From Atribacterota bacterium (GTDB lineage Bacteria; Atribacterota; Phoenicimicrobiia; Phoenicimicrobiales; Stramentimicrobiaceae), in NCBI GenBank assembly GCA_028717805.1, contig JAQUNC010000021.1, forward strand, positions 1-40,743: 40,743 nucleotides of DNA. The letters run 5' to 3'. Shown one piece after another: positions 13,895 to 20,779 of this stretch. The stretch's first letter is position 1. Each line of letters opens with the position of its first letter. The notes beneath the pieces are model-generated. The model was not told where the DNA came from, made no database searches, and saw only the letters and a list, made by a program, of their open reading frames with translations. The translations under genes were made by a program, and so were the position numbers.

Positions 13895-14893
13895 TTATCC
13901 TTCCTTAATCCATGGTATCATTGCACGTATCTTCTCGCCCACTTTTTCAATGAGAAGATTAGACTCTTTATCCCTCATAGCGCTAAAGAATGGTCTCCCT
14001 ACCTGGTTTTCCAGAAGCCATTCTCTAGCAAAAGAGCCATTCTGTATTTCCGCTAATAATTTTTTCATTTCTTTTCTGGTTTCCTCAGTAATAATACGTT
14101 TACCCGATTTTAAGTCACCATATTCTGCAGTATTACTAACATTATCACGCATGTGGGTGATTCCGCCGGCGTAGATAAGATCAACAATTAATTTTAATTC
14201 ATTTAAGCATTCAAAATAGGCTACTTCAGGTTGATAACCTGCTTCTACAAGGGTATCAAAACCGGCTTGAATTAAAGCTACCACACCTCCGCATAAAACA
14301 GCCTGTTCTCCAAATAGATCAGTTTCAGTTTCTTCCTGAAAGGTGGTTTCAATAGCACCAGCACGAGTTCCGCCAATAGCCTGAGAGTAAGCCAAAGCTG
14401 TATCTTTGGCATGACCAGTAAAATCCTGATATATAGCAATCAAGTTGGGCACACCACGCCCTTCAACATACATCTTTCTGACAATGGCACCAGGTCCTTT
14501 AGGGGCAACCATTATAACATCAACATATTCAGGCGGTATAATCTGTTTAAAGTGAATATTAAATCCATGTGAAAACATCAAAGTATTTCCTTCTTTCAGA
14601 TTTTCCAGAATCCTGTTTAAGCAGCAAATCTGTGGTTGGATTTCATCTGGTATTAAAATCTGTACAATATCTGCTTGTTGCACAACCTTCTCAATACTCT
14701 CTACTCTTAAGCCATCATTTTTTGCTTTTGACCATGATTTACCATTTTCTCTTAGTCCCACTACAACATTAATTCCACTGTCCTTAAGATTTAGAGCTTG
14801 ACCCCTTCCCTGGCTTCCATAACCAATGATCGCTACAGTTTTATTCTGTAAATAACTCTTGTCAGCATCCTCATCATAATAAATTTTTGCCAT
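13895..14893 (-). CDS. ilvC: Ketol-acid reductoisomerase
   Basis: IlvC converts acetolactate or acetohydroxybutyrate to the dihydroxy acid with NAD(P)H and Mg2+, the second common step of isoleucine and valine synthesis. The 332-residue class I protein shows the dinucleotide motif [10 protein letters not shown] (24-33), APKGPG (130-135) and the metal-binding segment [11 protein letters not shown] (187-197) with Asp192 and Glu196. The usual His-Ala after YGSQG is Arg-Gly here, a minor deviation in the cofactor loop. It is the last gene of the ilvB-ilvN-ilvC operon, 43 bases after ilvN, with a strong AAGGAGG site. Expression should be controlled by the tandem riboswitch leader ahead of ilvB. 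Confidence 0.96.
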
Positions 14894-14936: not shown

Positions 14937-15431
14937 TTAATTTAAGATTCTTTGTGCTCCTCTGGAAAGAGAGATTTTACCAGTACGGGCAATTTCTAAA
15001 ATACCGAAAGATTCCAGTAATTTTAATTTGGCATTTATTTTTTCCTGTGTTCCAGTTATTTCAATAGTGAGAGCCTGTTTCTCAATATCTACAATATGTC
15101 CCCGGAAAGTATCGACCAGTTGCATGATTTCAGTTCTCTGATCAACCGATTTGGTACTTACTTTAATTAAGGCTAATTCTCTCTCTACTGAAATATCCCT
15201 GGGAAGATCCCTTACTCTTATTACATCAACCAATTTATTGAGCTGCTTGGTAATTTGCTCCAGAATATGCTCATCTCCTTCTGTTACAATGGTAATTCTA
15301 GTGATGCCTTTCTTTTCTGAATGCCCTGCTGCAATACTATCTATATTAAATCTTCTGCGATTAAAGAGACTGGAAACACGTGCCAATACTCCGGGATGAT
15401 CTTTAACTAGAATAGCAATAGTATGTTTCAT
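14937..15431 (-). CDS. ilvN: Acetolactate synthase small (regulatory) subunit
   Basis: This is the 164-residue regulatory subunit of acetohydroxyacid synthase, which binds the large subunit and confers feedback inhibition, usually by valine. The N-terminal ACT domain (about 1-75) begins [26 protein letters not shown], and the C-terminal small-subunit domain spans about 76-160. Length and both domains are normal for the family (also called ilvH). The start codon overlaps the ilvB stop as ATGA, so the two subunits are translationally coupled. Confidence 0.95.
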
Positions 15432-17104
15432 GATTCATTCACTCCTAACATTTTATTAATTGATTCACCGGGTGCCACCATAGGCAATACATTTTCTTCG
15501 GATGGAATGAGGCAATCTATTAAGAAAAAGGTTCTTTCGGACAATGCTTGAGCCAGAGCAGTGTTGAAATCTTCAGTCCTGGAAACCCTTACTCCCTTTC
15601 CACCATAAACCTGAACAACCTGAGCAAAGTTAGGACTACCTTCCAGGCTAGTTGCGGAATATCTTTTTCCGAAGAATAATTCCTGCCATTGGCGGACCAT
15701 ACCCAGATAACCATTATTCATAATCAAAACTACAATGGGTATTTTATTATAAATGGCAGTAGCTAATTCCTGGATATTCATCTGAAATCCGCCATCTCCC
15801 GCTATGCAAAAGACTCTTTTCTCTGGACACCCGATTTGAGCACCTATAGCTGCTGGTAGACCAAATCCCATTGTTCCCAATCCTCCTGAGGTGATGAAGC
15901 TTCGAGGGTAGCTGAATTTATAATATTGAGCAACCCACATCTGGTGTTGACCAACATCAGTGACAATAACAGAATTCTCTTTGGTTGATTCATATAGTTT
16001 TTCAATGATATATTGGGGCCTTAACTGATCATCATGGTGGTATTGCAAAGGATACTTTTGTTTTAAATGAGCTATTCTATTTACCCAATCTTTTTCCGGT
16101 TTGGATTCTGTAAATTGTATTAGTTTAGTCAAAACATATTTCAGGTCTCCCACAATAGGAATATCTACTCTAACATTTTTACTGATTTCAGCTGGATCGA
16201 TATCTACATGAATAAATTTGGCATCAGGACAGAAATCTTTAGCACTCCCGATTACCCGGTCATCAAAACGAGTTCCCAGGGCTATAACTAAATCTGCTTC
16301 ACTCATGGCAGTGTTAGCATAATATGTACCATGCATTCCCAGCATTCCCAGCGCTAAGCAGTGTTCTTCGGGAAAACTTCCTAATCCCATCAGAGTAGTA
16401 GTGATAGGAATATTTGTTTTTTGAACAAAATCTTGTAGTTCTTGGGCAGCATTGGAGTTGATTATTCCTCCACCAGCATAAATAATTGGTCTTTTCGCTT
16501 TCTGAATAGCCAGAGTCGCTTTTTTAATTTGATTTAAATTTCCTTTTAATGTAGGCCGGTAACCAGTGCATTTATCCTTTTCCGGATAAGAAAAATCTGT
16601 TTGGACAAGCTGAACATCTTTGGGTAAGTCAATTAAAATTGGTCCTGGTCTCCCATTTTTTGCCAAATAAAATGCCTCTTTGATAGTAGAAGCAAGATCT
16701 TTAATGTTCATTACTAGATAATTATGCTTGGTGATAGGTAGAGTGATACCGGTAATATCTACCTCCTGGAAAGCATCTGTACCAATAAATGGCGAAATAA
16801 CCTGTCCGGTGAAAGCAACTATTGGTATAGAATCTAAATAAGCATTAGCTAGACCGGTTACCAGGTTAGTAGCTCCCGGACCAGAGGTGGCGAAGCATAC
16901 TCCTACCTTACCAGTTGCTCGGGCATAACCATCAGCGGCATGTGCTGCCCCCTGTTCATGTTTGGTCAAGATATGAGTGAAGGAGGCTTTTTGGTAAATA
17001 GTGTCATAAAGAGGCATAATGGCACCTCCGGGAATCCCGAAAACCACCTCGACTTTCTCTCTTTTTAGACATTCCACAATAATTTCGGTCCCACTTAGTT
17101 TCAC
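15428..17104 (-). CDS. ilvB: Acetolactate synthase large (catalytic) subunit
   Basis: IlvB is the thiamine-diphosphate enzyme that condenses two pyruvates, or pyruvate with 2-oxobutyrate, to start branched-chain amino acid synthesis. The protein of about 558 residues shows FGIPGGAIMPLYD with the catalytic Glu in KHEQGAAHAADGYARA, and the ThDP motif GDGGFQMNIQELATA closing at IMNNGYLG. I place the start at the GTG at 17104, giving MKLSGTE, the usual beginning for the family. The ATG two codons earlier (17110) lies only one base from the AAGGAGGG ribosome site, whereas the GTG is spaced about 7 bases. It overlaps ilvN by 4 bases and is preceded by a leader of over 700 bases that carries two riboswitches. 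Confidence 0.95.
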   Translation of the reverse strand: MKLSGTEIIVECLKREKVEVVFGIPGGAIMPLYDTIYQKASFTHILTKHEQGAAHAADGYARATGKVGVCFATSGPGATNLVTGLANAYLDSIPIVAFTGQVISPFIGTDAFQEVDITGITLPITKHNYLVMNIKDLASTIKEAFYLAKNGRPGPILIDLPKDVQLVQTDFSYPEKDKCTGYRPTLKGNLNQIKKATLAIQKAKRPIIYAGGGIINSNAAQELQDFVQKTNIPITTTLMGLGSFPEEHCLALGMLGMHGTYYANTAMSEADLVIALGTRFDDRVIGSAKDFCPDAKFIHVDIDPAEISKNVRVDIPIVGDLKYVLTKLIQFTESKPEKDWVNRIAHLKQKYPLQYHHDDQLRPQYIIEKLYESTKENSVIVTDVGQHQMWVAQYYKFSYPRSFITSGGLGTMGFGLPAAIGAQIGCPEKRVFCIAGDGGFQMNIQELATAIYNKIPIVVLIMNNGYLGMVRQWQELFFGKRYSATSLEGSPNFAQVVQVYGGKGVRVSRTEDFNTALAQALSERTFFLIDCLIPSEENVLPMVAPGESINKMLGVNES

Positions 17105-17392
17105 AACCATCCCTCCTTATTAAAGATATTTATATTTTTGTTGTTTTTAGTAATTACCATAAATCTCAATCTGTTAGAATATACAAGGGAACTACTTCCT
17201 CTTGAGAACCCCTAAAATTAAGTTCAAGTGTAATATTTATTAATTTCTTCCATATCTTGTTTTTAATATTCTTTTATAATAAATACTATTTAATCTAAGT
17301 TAGTTAAGGCGTAAAAATTTATAGGAATTATATCCCCGTCCATAAAATATAATCGAGCACATTAATTCCTTAATTTAACATAAATAGATATA

Positions 17393-17545
17393 GTTAAACC
17401 CCAGGGATAGTTCCTTAATTGTAAAATTTGGGACCTATCCGCTGGGGTCTTTTTTACCCACGGTGTAATACGTTTTATCCGAAACGCATTTTATGCCACT
17501 TGGTCCAGACTTTTAATAAAAACGGAACCCTAGGCATACTCCCGA
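17393..17545 (-). ncRNA. ykkC subtype-2 riboswitch (ppGpp type) with terminator platform
   Basis: Just after the T-box terminator, the minus strand carries the ykkC hallmark CTAGGGTTCCG (17523-17533), then CTGGACCAAGTGGCA, ACACCG (17461-17466) and GGGTAAAAAAGACCCC followed by AGCGGATAGG (17434-17459). These elements and their order match ykkC subtype 2, whose members sense ppGpp, PRPP or nucleoside diphosphates. The ppGpp class is known to precede branched-chain amino acid genes, which fits ilvBNC. GGATAGG (17434-17440) can pair either with CCTA of the aptamer or with CTATCC (17405-17410) in a long hairpin (17396-17449). This suggests an ON switch in which ligand prevents termination. The U-tract after that hairpin is weak. 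Subtype assignment to ppGpp rests on gene context. Confidence 0.72.
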
Positions 17546-17549
17546 AAAT

Positions 17550-17820
17550 AAAAAAATCCTTCTTCCCATTTTAATCTTACTAATTAAAATAGGGACGAAG
17601 GATTCGTGGTACCACCCTAATTTGATAAAGAAAATAATATTTCTTTATACTACTTAATTGGCATAACGCATTAAAAATGCGACTGGATTCATTTGATGGT
17701 CAGTTTAGATAATAGAAGTGATTTTCAACAAAGTAGAACTACCAGTTCACACCATTTCCTGGCTCTCTTTAGTTCATTGCTTTGCCTAACTGTCTTCTAT
17801 TTTAGGTTATATTAAATTTC
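17550..17820 (-). ncRNA. T-box riboswitch leader of ilvBNC, isoleucine specifier AUC
   Basis: The conserved T-box sequence AGGGTGGTACCACG is exact at 17605-17618 on the minus strand. Stem I begins AATAGAAG and closes with CTTCTATT. The AGAGAGCC and GGTGTGAACTGG elements of the distal stem are visible. On the 3' side of the specifier loop, TTGAAAATCAC contains AUC followed by A (17720-17722), an isoleucine codon, matching the genes controlled. After the T-box a terminator stem pairs AATCCTTC with GAAGGATT (17550-17604) and ends in seven Ts. Known mechanism: uncharged tRNA-Ile stabilises the antiterminator and allows transcription. Confidence 0.93.
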
Positions 17821-17825
17821 TATGG

Positions 17826-17854
17826 ATTGTACTAAAAAACCCAACATATGTCAA
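17826..17854 (-). promoter_or_regulatory. Sigma-70-type promoter of the ilvBNC leader
   Basis: On the minus strand TTGACA (17849-17854) and TACAAT (17826-17831) are separated by exactly 17 bases. Transcription should start near 17819, immediately before stem I of the T-box. Confidence 0.85.
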
Positions 17855-18818: not shown

Positions 18819-20219
18819 TTAGATTTCTAAATAAGATTCGTCCAGTTTAGTAGCAACTGCCCTTCTTTCTGCTTCTCGATGTTCATTGATAATCTGCCAT
18901 CTAATCCTATTAAACAGAGTGATTGCCAGCAGAAAAGTGAGAATATTGGCAAATGGTTGGGCATAAATAAATCCAGAAAATCCAAAAAATTTGTTCAGGA
19001 TAAAAAGGGCAGGTATATAGAATAAACCCTGTCGAGCTAAGGCTAAAATCAAAGCGGGCTTTCCTTTGCCCAACGCCTGGAAGCTAACTCTTATTAAAAA
19101 CTGAATTCCGGCAAAGGGTAGAGCAATGATGATGGCGCGCATAATCTGAATCCCATAGGTTACGACCTGTTGGTTATTAATAAAGATTTGAATTAGCTTT
19201 CCGGCGAAAAGATAGAAGAATATGACAAAAAAAATAGAGATACTGGTAGCCATAATACCGGCTGTTTTAATAATTTTATTGAGCCGGCTAATTTTTTGGG
19301 CGCCATAGCTATAACCAATTAAAGGTTGTGTACCTTCTGATAGTCCGATTAAAACCATAATGCACATGGAAAAAATACGATGATTAATGCCATAGGCTGC
19401 TACAATCATGTCATTGTAGCTGGCTGCCACGTAATTTCCCATCGTCTGGGCAATACTGATCATTAGAGTGTGTATGGATGCGGGAATCCCAACCCTGAAG
19501 ATTTCCAGAAAAATCTCTTTTTGTAAAGAAAAATATTTCCAATGAATGGATATAATACTCTTCTTTTTTATGTAAAAACTGAAATAATACAGTAAACCGA
19601 TTACTTGTCCTATCAGGGTGGCAACTGCCGCTCCTTTTACACCATATCCCAAGGTGAGGATGAAGATAGGATCGAGAATAATATTGATTCCCGTTCCGAT
19701 AAACATACCAATCATGGCTACCTTTGCTGCTCCCTCTGAGCGAAGTAACTGGGTTAGCATAAATTTGGTTATCATCACGGTACTGCCCAGGAATATGATT
19801 GACAGATATTCATAAGCATATCTTTGGGTTTCCGGGGTAACTCCGATTAATCTCAGGATTGGTGATATAAAAATCAGACTTCCGACAGTAACCAATAGCG
19901 CTGCAATCAGGCAGGCATAAAAAGCAATTGCGCTGGTCTTTTTGGCCATCAGATAATCTTTTTTCCCCAACAATCTGGAGATATAAGATGCCGCTCCAAA
20001 TCCGAATATGCCCGCAACTGACATCAACATCATAAAGATAGGAAAGGCTACCGAAACGGCAGCTACCTGAAAAGGGTCATTTAATTTTCCCACGAAAAAG
20101 GTATCGGTAAGATTATAGAATACCTGAACCAGCATGCCTAAAATTGTGGGAATAGACAAACTCAAAATTGCCTTTAAAGGGGGTTCATCTCTTAGTATTT
20201 TTATTCTTTTTTCATCCAT
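18819..20219 (-). CDS. MATE-family multidrug efflux transporter
   Basis: This is a 466-residue polytopic inner-membrane protein with about 12 hydrophobic segments and the MATE fold. MATE pumps export cationic or other drugs using a Na+ or H+ gradient. Characteristic family segments are FYNLTDTFFVGKL near the N-terminus and RSEGAAKVAMIGMFIGTGINIILDPIFI in the middle, similar to MepA/DinF-type members. The marR gene lies 125 bases upstream on the same strand, so the pump is probably controlled by it. The ribosome site GAGGAT precedes the ATG. Substrate unknown. Confidence 0.92.
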   Translation of the reverse strand: MDEKRIKILRDEPPLKAILSLSIPTILGMLVQVFYNLTDTFFVGKLNDPFQVAAVSVAFPIFMMLMSVAGIFGFGAASYISRLLGKKDYLMAKKTSAIAFYACLIAALLVTVGSLIFISPILRLIGVTPETQRYAYEYLSIIFLGSTVMITKFMLTQLLRSEGAAKVAMIGMFIGTGINIILDPIFILTLGYGVKGAAVATLIGQVIGLLYYFSFYIKKKSIISIHWKYFSLQKEIFLEIFRVGIPASIHTLMISIAQTMGNYVAASYNDMIVAAYGINHRIFSMCIMVLIGLSEGTQPLIGYSYGAQKISRLNKIIKTAGIMATSISIFFVIFFYLFAGKLIQIFINNQQVVTYGIQIMRAIIIALPFAGIQFLIRVSFQALGKGKPALILALARQGLFYIPALFILNKFFGFSGFIYAQPFANILTFLLAITLFNRIRWQIINEHREAERRAVATKLDESYLEI

Positions 20220-20344
20220 TCACTTAAATCCTCACGAATATATTCTATTTTTAAAAATAAATGCTTAGTTAATATTCATATTAATTTCTTTAATAAAGAG
20301 AAAGAAAGGGCCAACTTTACGGTTCATTAAACATAAAGAAGCTA

Positions 20345-20779
20345 TTAATGCTTTATTTTTTCCTTAATCTTGAGCAGGAAATCAGTAAGGGTATTAATTT
20401 CCTGCCGGGTAAAATCTTGCAAGAGATATGCTTCTGAGTCAGCAATATTCTTAAGACATATCCTTTTTATTTCCATTCCTCTTTCAGTAAGTTTGATGAT
20501 TTTGTTTCGGGAATCATTTGGATCAGCCTCTTTGCTAATCAAATCTTTTTGCTGTAATAATCTGATTAATTTAGTCAGGGAAGATGGTTTGATTTCCAAA
20601 AATTCATGAATCATTTTTTGATTAATATTCTGCTTGCCATGTTCCCATAAATAGGCTAATACCCTAAATTGCGATATAGTAAGATTATTCTGGCTTAACT
20701 TTTCATCCATTCGCATCTTCAGATGATGACCGATTCCCATAATAAGCCTGGGAATGCTATATACTTTATTTTGTTCCAT
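20345..20779 (-). CDS. MarR-family transcriptional regulator
   Basis: This is a 144-residue winged-helix regulator of the MarR family. The DNA-binding part spans about 35-105: LTISQFRVLAYLWEHG, the recognition helix around KPSSLTKLIRLLQQKDLI, and the wing DPNDSRNKIIKLTERG with the conserved Asp-x-Arg pattern. MarR proteins bind palindromes as dimers and usually repress a neighbouring efflux gene together with themselves. Here the MATE pump gene follows, and a 20-bp perfect palindrome lies immediately beside the -10 box of its own promoter, supporting autorepression relieved by a drug-like ligand. The ribosome binding site is weak. Confidence 0.92.
   Translation of the reverse strand: MEQNKVYSIPRLIMGIGHHLKMRMDEKLSQNNLTISQFRVLAYLWEHGKQNINQKMIHEFLEIKPSSLTKLIRLLQQKDLISKEADPNDSRNKIIKLTERGMEIKRICLKNIADSEAYLLQDFTRQEINTLTDFLLKIKEKIKH

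Follow-up and report, generated by a model that had tools for sequence, protein, structure and literature searches.

Does the leader of an ilvBNC operon in an Atribacterota bacterium combine two RNA sensors, and if so, which signals would have to coincide before the operon is transcribed? The initial annotation of this locus proposed an isoleucine T-box and a ppGpp-type riboswitch arranged in tandem and acting as an AND gate. As a whole, this interpretation is supported by the analysis described here, with different degrees of certainty for its individual parts.

Architecture of the ilvBNC leader

The window, i.e. the whole stretch of DNA that was analysed, comprises 40,743 nucleotides. Positions 17854-17399 of its minus strand contain, in the direction of transcription, a promoter, a T-box, a terminator, a complete ykkC-type aptamer and a second hairpin; ilvB, ilvN and ilvC are located downstream. 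The individual features are:

17826-17854, minus strand: promoter, -35 TTGACA, 17-nt spacer, -10 TACAAT (consensus match only)
17588-17805, minus strand: T-box leader from Stem I to antiterminator (RF00230, 89.4 bits, E 6.8e-20, positions 1-219 of 219)
17720-17722, minus strand: specifier codon AUC (Ile), embedded in GAA-A-AUC-A-CUUC (nucleotides 2-4 counted back from the bulge end, TBDB +0 frame)
17605-17617, minus strand: T-box motif GGGTGGTACCACG (sequence and RF00230 match)
17550-17602, minus strand: T-box terminator, stem TCCTTCGTCCC.../...GGGAAGAAGGA, then TTTTTTT (dG -19.9 kcal/mol)
17430-17543, minus strand: ykkC subtype 2 aptamer with P0, P1, P1b, P2 and P3 (RF00442 at 53 bits, covariation, class models)
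17498, minus strand: equivalent of residue 49 (PRPP aptamer numbering), U (sequence alignment)
17465, minus strand: conserved C ahead of P3, corresponding to C75 in PRPP aptamer numbering (invariant in alignment A4)
17443, minus strand: A in the alignment column of G96 (PRPP aptamer numbering), within CCC-C-A-G-CGG (criterion of PMC6031431)
17399-17447, minus strand: second hairpin CCCCAGCGGATAGGTCC.../...GGAACTATCCCTGGGG (dG -24.3 kcal/mol)
17384-17398, minus strand: tail of the second hairpin, TTTAACTATATCTAT, with a broken T-tract (sequence)
17175-17308, minus strand: copy of a dispersed repeat between riboswitch and ilvB (repeat search in the genome)
15428-17110, minus strand: ilvB, acetolactate synthase large subunit (NCBIfam TIGR00118, E 1.4e-247)
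14937-15431, minus strand: ilvN, acetolactate synthase small subunit (NCBIfam NF008864, E 8.1e-63)
13895-14893, minus strand: ilvC, ketol-acid reductoisomerase (NCBIfam NF004017, E 1.5e-163)

Profile matches for all three genes bear out the ilvBNC operon. Judged by the starts of its relatives, ilvB likely begins at GTG 17104, and a Shine-Dalgarno sequence, AAGGAGG, is found at 17118-17112. A promoter pair comparable to that of the window, TTGACA/TAAAAT, occupies the equivalent position in the leader of a relative (L055). Elsewhere in the window, a MarR-type regulator and then a MATE efflux transporter are encoded on the minus strand at 18819-20779.

The T-box motif and the terminator, both recognised initially from sequence, lie on the minus strand within or next to the full-length RF00230 match. 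Likewise, the isoleucine specifier is supported by the rule used in TBDB (PMC7778990), which takes nucleotides 2-4, counted back from the bulge end, as the codon, and an identical AUC is present in L055, L036 and L031, its three closest relatives. The antiterminator bulge UGGU (17614-17611), kept in three close relatives, is complementary to the ...ACCA 3' end of tRNA, and a CGUCCCU strand is common to antiterminator and terminator. No tRNA-Ile(GAU) was found among the tRNAs read from the 92-contig draft genome.

The ykkC aptamer begins within about 10 bases of the run of seven T that ends the T-box terminator. RF00442 (Guanidine-I/ykkC), the only model supplied by Rfam 15 for the ykkC scaffold, matches at 17544-17437 of the minus strand over its full length (53 bits, E 2.3e-8). 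A default Rfam scan at gathering thresholds was empty, because both elements fall just below their gathering scores, the T-box by 3.6 bits (89.4 versus 93) and the aptamer with 53 versus 63; permissive cmscan recovered both of them. A pyrimidine at residue 49 marks ykkC subtype 2 (PMC6031431), and the U at this position and the presence of P0 uphold the subtype 2 core annotated behind the T-box. P0, an add-on helix connecting the two ends of the aptamer, is formed by GGGA (17543-17540) and TCCC (17433-17430), with GC-to-AU covariation in the set. Across 23 RNAs, 16 of the 32 aptamer pairs show two-sided changes, and the bases are paired in 96.9% of cells; with P0 included, this covariation is better than that of all 500 shuffles (0/500 as good) and of every slid version. 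Chance similarity is excluded, because the pair of elements recurs in relatives, the aptamer helices covary and both CTAGGGTTCCG and GGGTGGNACCNCG have a single occurrence in the 40.7-kb window. The ykkC core, searched as a sequence string in PubMed Central text, gave no relevant match.

Second hairpin and proposed serial operation

The 3' side of P3 together with P0, CCCCAGCGGAUAGGUCCC, also supplies the second hairpin with its 5' arm. Hairpin and ligand-bound aptamer are therefore mutually exclusive, as they are in a studied ppGpp riboswitch (PMC10687018), and the competition for GGATAGG proposed in the initial annotation is present. Relative L031 carries a compensatory change, in which the conserved GGAUAGG is replaced by GGACAGG and UAUCC in the opposite hairpin arm by UGUC.

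The weak U-tract ascribed to this hairpin is genuine. The longest T run in the tail TTTAACTATATC is 3; within GGGG-TTTAACTAT, T runs in the first 10 nt also reach a maximum of 3, and there are 5 T in total. Runs of 4-6 T are found in 13 of the 15 Atribacterota relatives, versus 3 in L039 and 2 in L041. With the T-tract broken and the stem intact, we take the second layer of the window copy to be possibly leaky rather than lost.

The distance from the second hairpin to ilvB is also unusual, about 290 nt versus roughly 50-115 nt in relatives, and a part of this length is due to the dispersed repeat copy at 17308-17175. The repeat, with the core GGGGTTCTCAAGAGGAAGTAGTTCCC, occurs about 10 more times in the genome, including a cluster of three copies on contig C23. 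Destruction of the T-tract by the repeat itself is not supported, as about 90 nt separate the tail from the start of the detectable repeat. A hairpin at 17370-17320 and a small ORF at 17361 (MCSIIFYGRGYNSYKFLRLN), considered as a third attenuator, have no counterpart in the three Ile-type relatives.

Drift of the leader, insertion of the repeat downstream and a T run shorter than in most relatives would all fit a second layer that is degraded in this species: the aptamer would fold, the hairpin would terminate poorly, the T-box alone would govern the operon and tuning by ppGpp would be modest at most. We regard such degradation as unlikely. The second hairpin retains a strong, intact stem, all conserved aptamer residues are kept, which would be unexpected after loss of function, and the relatives L039 and L041 also have broken tails. 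Moreover, strong stems may terminate transcription despite poor U-tracts or with the help of NusA/NusG.

Very probably, the ilvBNC leader consists of two transcription attenuators in series, a T-box followed by a ppGpp riboswitch. RNA polymerase would meet the T-box first. Uncharged tRNA-Ile, pairing with AUC and UGGU, would stabilise the antiterminator, so that the first terminator is passed and the ykkC subtype 2a aptamer is transcribed. Binding of ppGpp would close P0 and P3 and sequester CCCCAGCGGAUAGGUCCC, the second hairpin would be blocked, and the polymerase would reach ilvB. From this scheme we infer the ON polarity of the second switch, termination at the second hairpin and, since two ON switches in series make an AND output, full expression when shortage of isoleucyl-tRNA coincides with raised ppGpp.

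Uncharged tRNA raises ppGpp through Rel, a coupling that is well established, and a RelA_SpoT domain is encoded in the window's genome (E 1.7e-45). The leader might hence be a redundant starvation gate instead of a true AND gate, the main effect of the second switch being to sharpen or delay the response of the first. The inputs are separable, since ppGpp rises on shortage of any amino acid and the T-box would answer to isoleucine only; a merely redundant second switch seems to us improbable. The serial AND gate is also the published model for T-box/ppGpp arrangements (PMC5912903, PMC9481103, PMC6031431).

Ligand class of the second element

The ppGpp and PRPP classes of ykkC RNAs are nearly identical, and a G96A mutation switches the ligand preference about 40,000-fold (PMC6031431). 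Class models were built as covariance models from Bacillota ykkC RNAs labelled by the downstream gene: small multidrug transporters for guanidine (12 SMR-transporter RNAs), purE/purB for PRPP, and ilvE behind a T-box for ppGpp (5 sequences only). The window RNA scored 46.7 bits with the guanidine model, 77.6 with the PRPP model and 76.6 with the ppGpp model trained on its five sequences. Because this training set is small, total scores leave ppGpp and PRPP unseparated, and class assignment by model score was replaced by a test of position 96 against the gene-labelled sets.

PRPP aptamers have G96 in more than 97% of cases, whereas ppGpp aptamers either lack this base or carry A, C or U (PMC6031431). 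In our sets, CCC-N-G-N-CGG is present in 15/15 PRPP-labelled RNAs, and A replaces this G in 23/23 RNAs associated with T-boxes and branched-chain amino acid genes (the window and 22 others). The conserved C75, whose partner in the published structure is the guanine of ppGpp (PMC6031431), is kept in the window. Locating residue 96 by counting back from the 3' end of the aptamer is misleading for the single Atribacterota RNAs, which lack the bulge and were kept out of the class assignment. With G96 absent and branched-chain amino acid genes downstream, ppGpp is the best ligand call: by diagnostic nucleotide and gene context, the aptamer is most likely a ppGpp-binding one of subtype 2a. The subclass assigned in the initial annotation is supported by the A at the 96-equivalent and by the ilvBNC context; the whole-model scores for ppGpp and PRPP are equal within 1 bit.

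Binding of PRPP (subtype 2b) or of a nucleoside diphosphate (2c) in place of ppGpp appears very unlikely. The PRPP model does score marginally higher, and a single base changes the specificity of otherwise almost identical classes; the PRPP riboswitch shares with the window the P0-P3 scaffold and most core bases. It differs by the G at position 96 and by purine genes downstream, and the window has A where all 15 purine-gene RNAs have G. For 11 held-out RNAs located before nucleobase permeases or purine genes, the margin in favour of the PRPP model is 17-42 bits, compared with 1.0 for the window, and an ilvBNC operon behind a T-box leader is the published context of ppGpp riboswitches. A guanidine-I riboswitch, suggested by the sole Rfam match, whose model spans the whole ykkC scaffold, and by speculation on T-box/'Guanidine' ilv tandems (PMC12452182), can be dismissed with near certainty: the guanidine model scores about 30 bits below both subtype 2 models, the window carries U at residue 49 in place of the A or G of the guanidine-labelled RNAs and possesses a P0 helix, and RNAs before branched-chain amino acid genes are reported not to bind guanidine (PMC7266159).

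Tandem leaders in Atribacterota and Bacillota

Fifteen other Atribacterota leaders have the T-box and ykkC pair in identical order, upstream of ilvB or ilvD; in Bacillota, the pair precedes ilvE in 7 leaders. When 84,980 species genomes were scanned for a T-box followed by a ykkC RNA, a scan in which records very close to the window's genome may be missing, the matches came mainly from Atribacterota, with a few from Bacillota. Kitasatospora, Kribbella and an Aurantimonadaceae MAG gave matches without a recognisable T-box Stem I, and these were excluded as tandems. Among 61 genomes sampled around that of the window, all 50 from Atribacterota contain T-boxes. ykkC RNAs are present in 21 of the 24 sampled Atribacterota that belong to the window's order, and in 0/26 elsewhere in the phylum.

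Three kinds of tandem were seen, with the specifiers AUC (Ile) or CUC (Leu), or with a longer bulge, GAARAUCUCRCC, in a second Atribacterota family. All 7 Bacillota tandems before ilvE have AUC. The window's genome itself contains a second tandem (C67:5650-6014; L002/L007) with the same order of T-box, ykkC and ilvB, the latter being another ilvB, and with CUC (Leu) as specifier instead; a tRNA-Leu(GAG) ending in ...ACCA, also encoded in this genome, matches it. The longer bulge, found in the copies read of L021, L029, L040, L041, L042, L045, L050 and L052, offers CUC (Leu) in the usual frame and AUC (Ile) overlapping by one base. These leaders could be two-codon T-boxes, such as the one reported for Asn/Glu in Clostridium acetobutylicum in work cited by PMC4052509.

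Atribacterota also possess single ykkC subtype 2 RNAs (L015, L024, L028, L030, L035, L037 and L043), with a P3 lacking the bulged base at position 96. Inspected by eye, the genes behind them resemble GAF-ANTAR, Glu/Leu dehydrogenase, branched-chain amino acid binding protein and BrnQ-type genes. A complete tRNA-Ala(GGC) gene, its CCA encoded, lies within the leuS T-box leader of the window's genome (C13:19623-19918, L003; CUC specifier), where it caps Stem III, with Stem I before it and the antiterminator behind it. This arrangement is present in seven genomes from two families (L003, L200, L201, L202, L203, L210 and L211), six of the seven having the form GGGUAGAU-tRNA-AUCUACU. Processing by RNase P/Z would sever the sensor from the antiterminator. 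A literature search found no report of a tRNA gene inside a T-box leader. Double T-boxes occur in L204-L209 and in C56 and C20 of the window's genome, some of them before a gene that resembles, by eye, anthranilate synthase component I; according to a 2025 survey, tandem T-boxes at trp genes are found exclusively in Bacillota (PMC12452182).

The device itself is already known, as serial T-box/ppGpp AND gates have been published for Bacillota. T box-Leu/ppGpp tandem riboswitches were reportedly described by Sherlock et al. in PNAS in 2018 (see also PMC5912903, Fig 6C). A tandem table lists 16 cases of T box-Leu followed by ppGpp and 15 in reverse order, all with Leu (PMC9481103, Table 2). Both RNA classes, a terminator for each of them, branched-chain amino acid genes and the predicted AND gate are common to these tandems and the window, whereas the AUC (Ile) specifier, the Atribacterota host and the broken second T-tract set the window apart. 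Contiguous T-box/'Guanidine-I' riboswitches before ilvB/N/C/D/E and leu genes (PMC12452182) resemble the window's arrangement before ilvB, ilvN and ilvC; they were described as enriched exclusively in Bacillota, with the second element taken as a guanidine sensor, which class models reject for the window RNA. Leaders from Desulfotruncus, Desulfoscipio and Carboxydocella (L046, L066, L067 and L064) also have an AUC T-box followed by a ykkC RNA with A at the 96-equivalent; they differ by ilvE in place of ilvB, by high GC content and by their Bacillota hosts. What is added here is the occurrence across an Atribacterota order, the Ile specifier, absent from the table of PMC9481103, and the presence of Ile and Leu tandems in one genome.

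We think it probable that this order of Atribacterota has a ppGpp-riboswitch regulon outside Bacillota, in which two paralogous ilvB operons would be controlled by T-box/ppGpp AND gates, one for tRNA-Ile (window) and one for tRNA-Leu (C67), and T box-Ile/ppGpp would be a specificity missing from the tandem tables examined. Because both elements score below Rfam cut-offs, annotation labels them as guanidine switches or overlooks them. The finding extends a known two-input RNA logic device to Atribacterota, a phylum without a report in the literature examined, and the isoleucine specifier is used with it in both Atribacterota and Bacillota. If the reading is true, starvation for isoleucine and starvation for leucine would summon different acetolactate synthases, each only under stringent response, and since a single genome has an Ile-keyed and a Leu-keyed gate, each before its own ilvB operon, the purpose of the ppGpp input could be tested by leader swaps.
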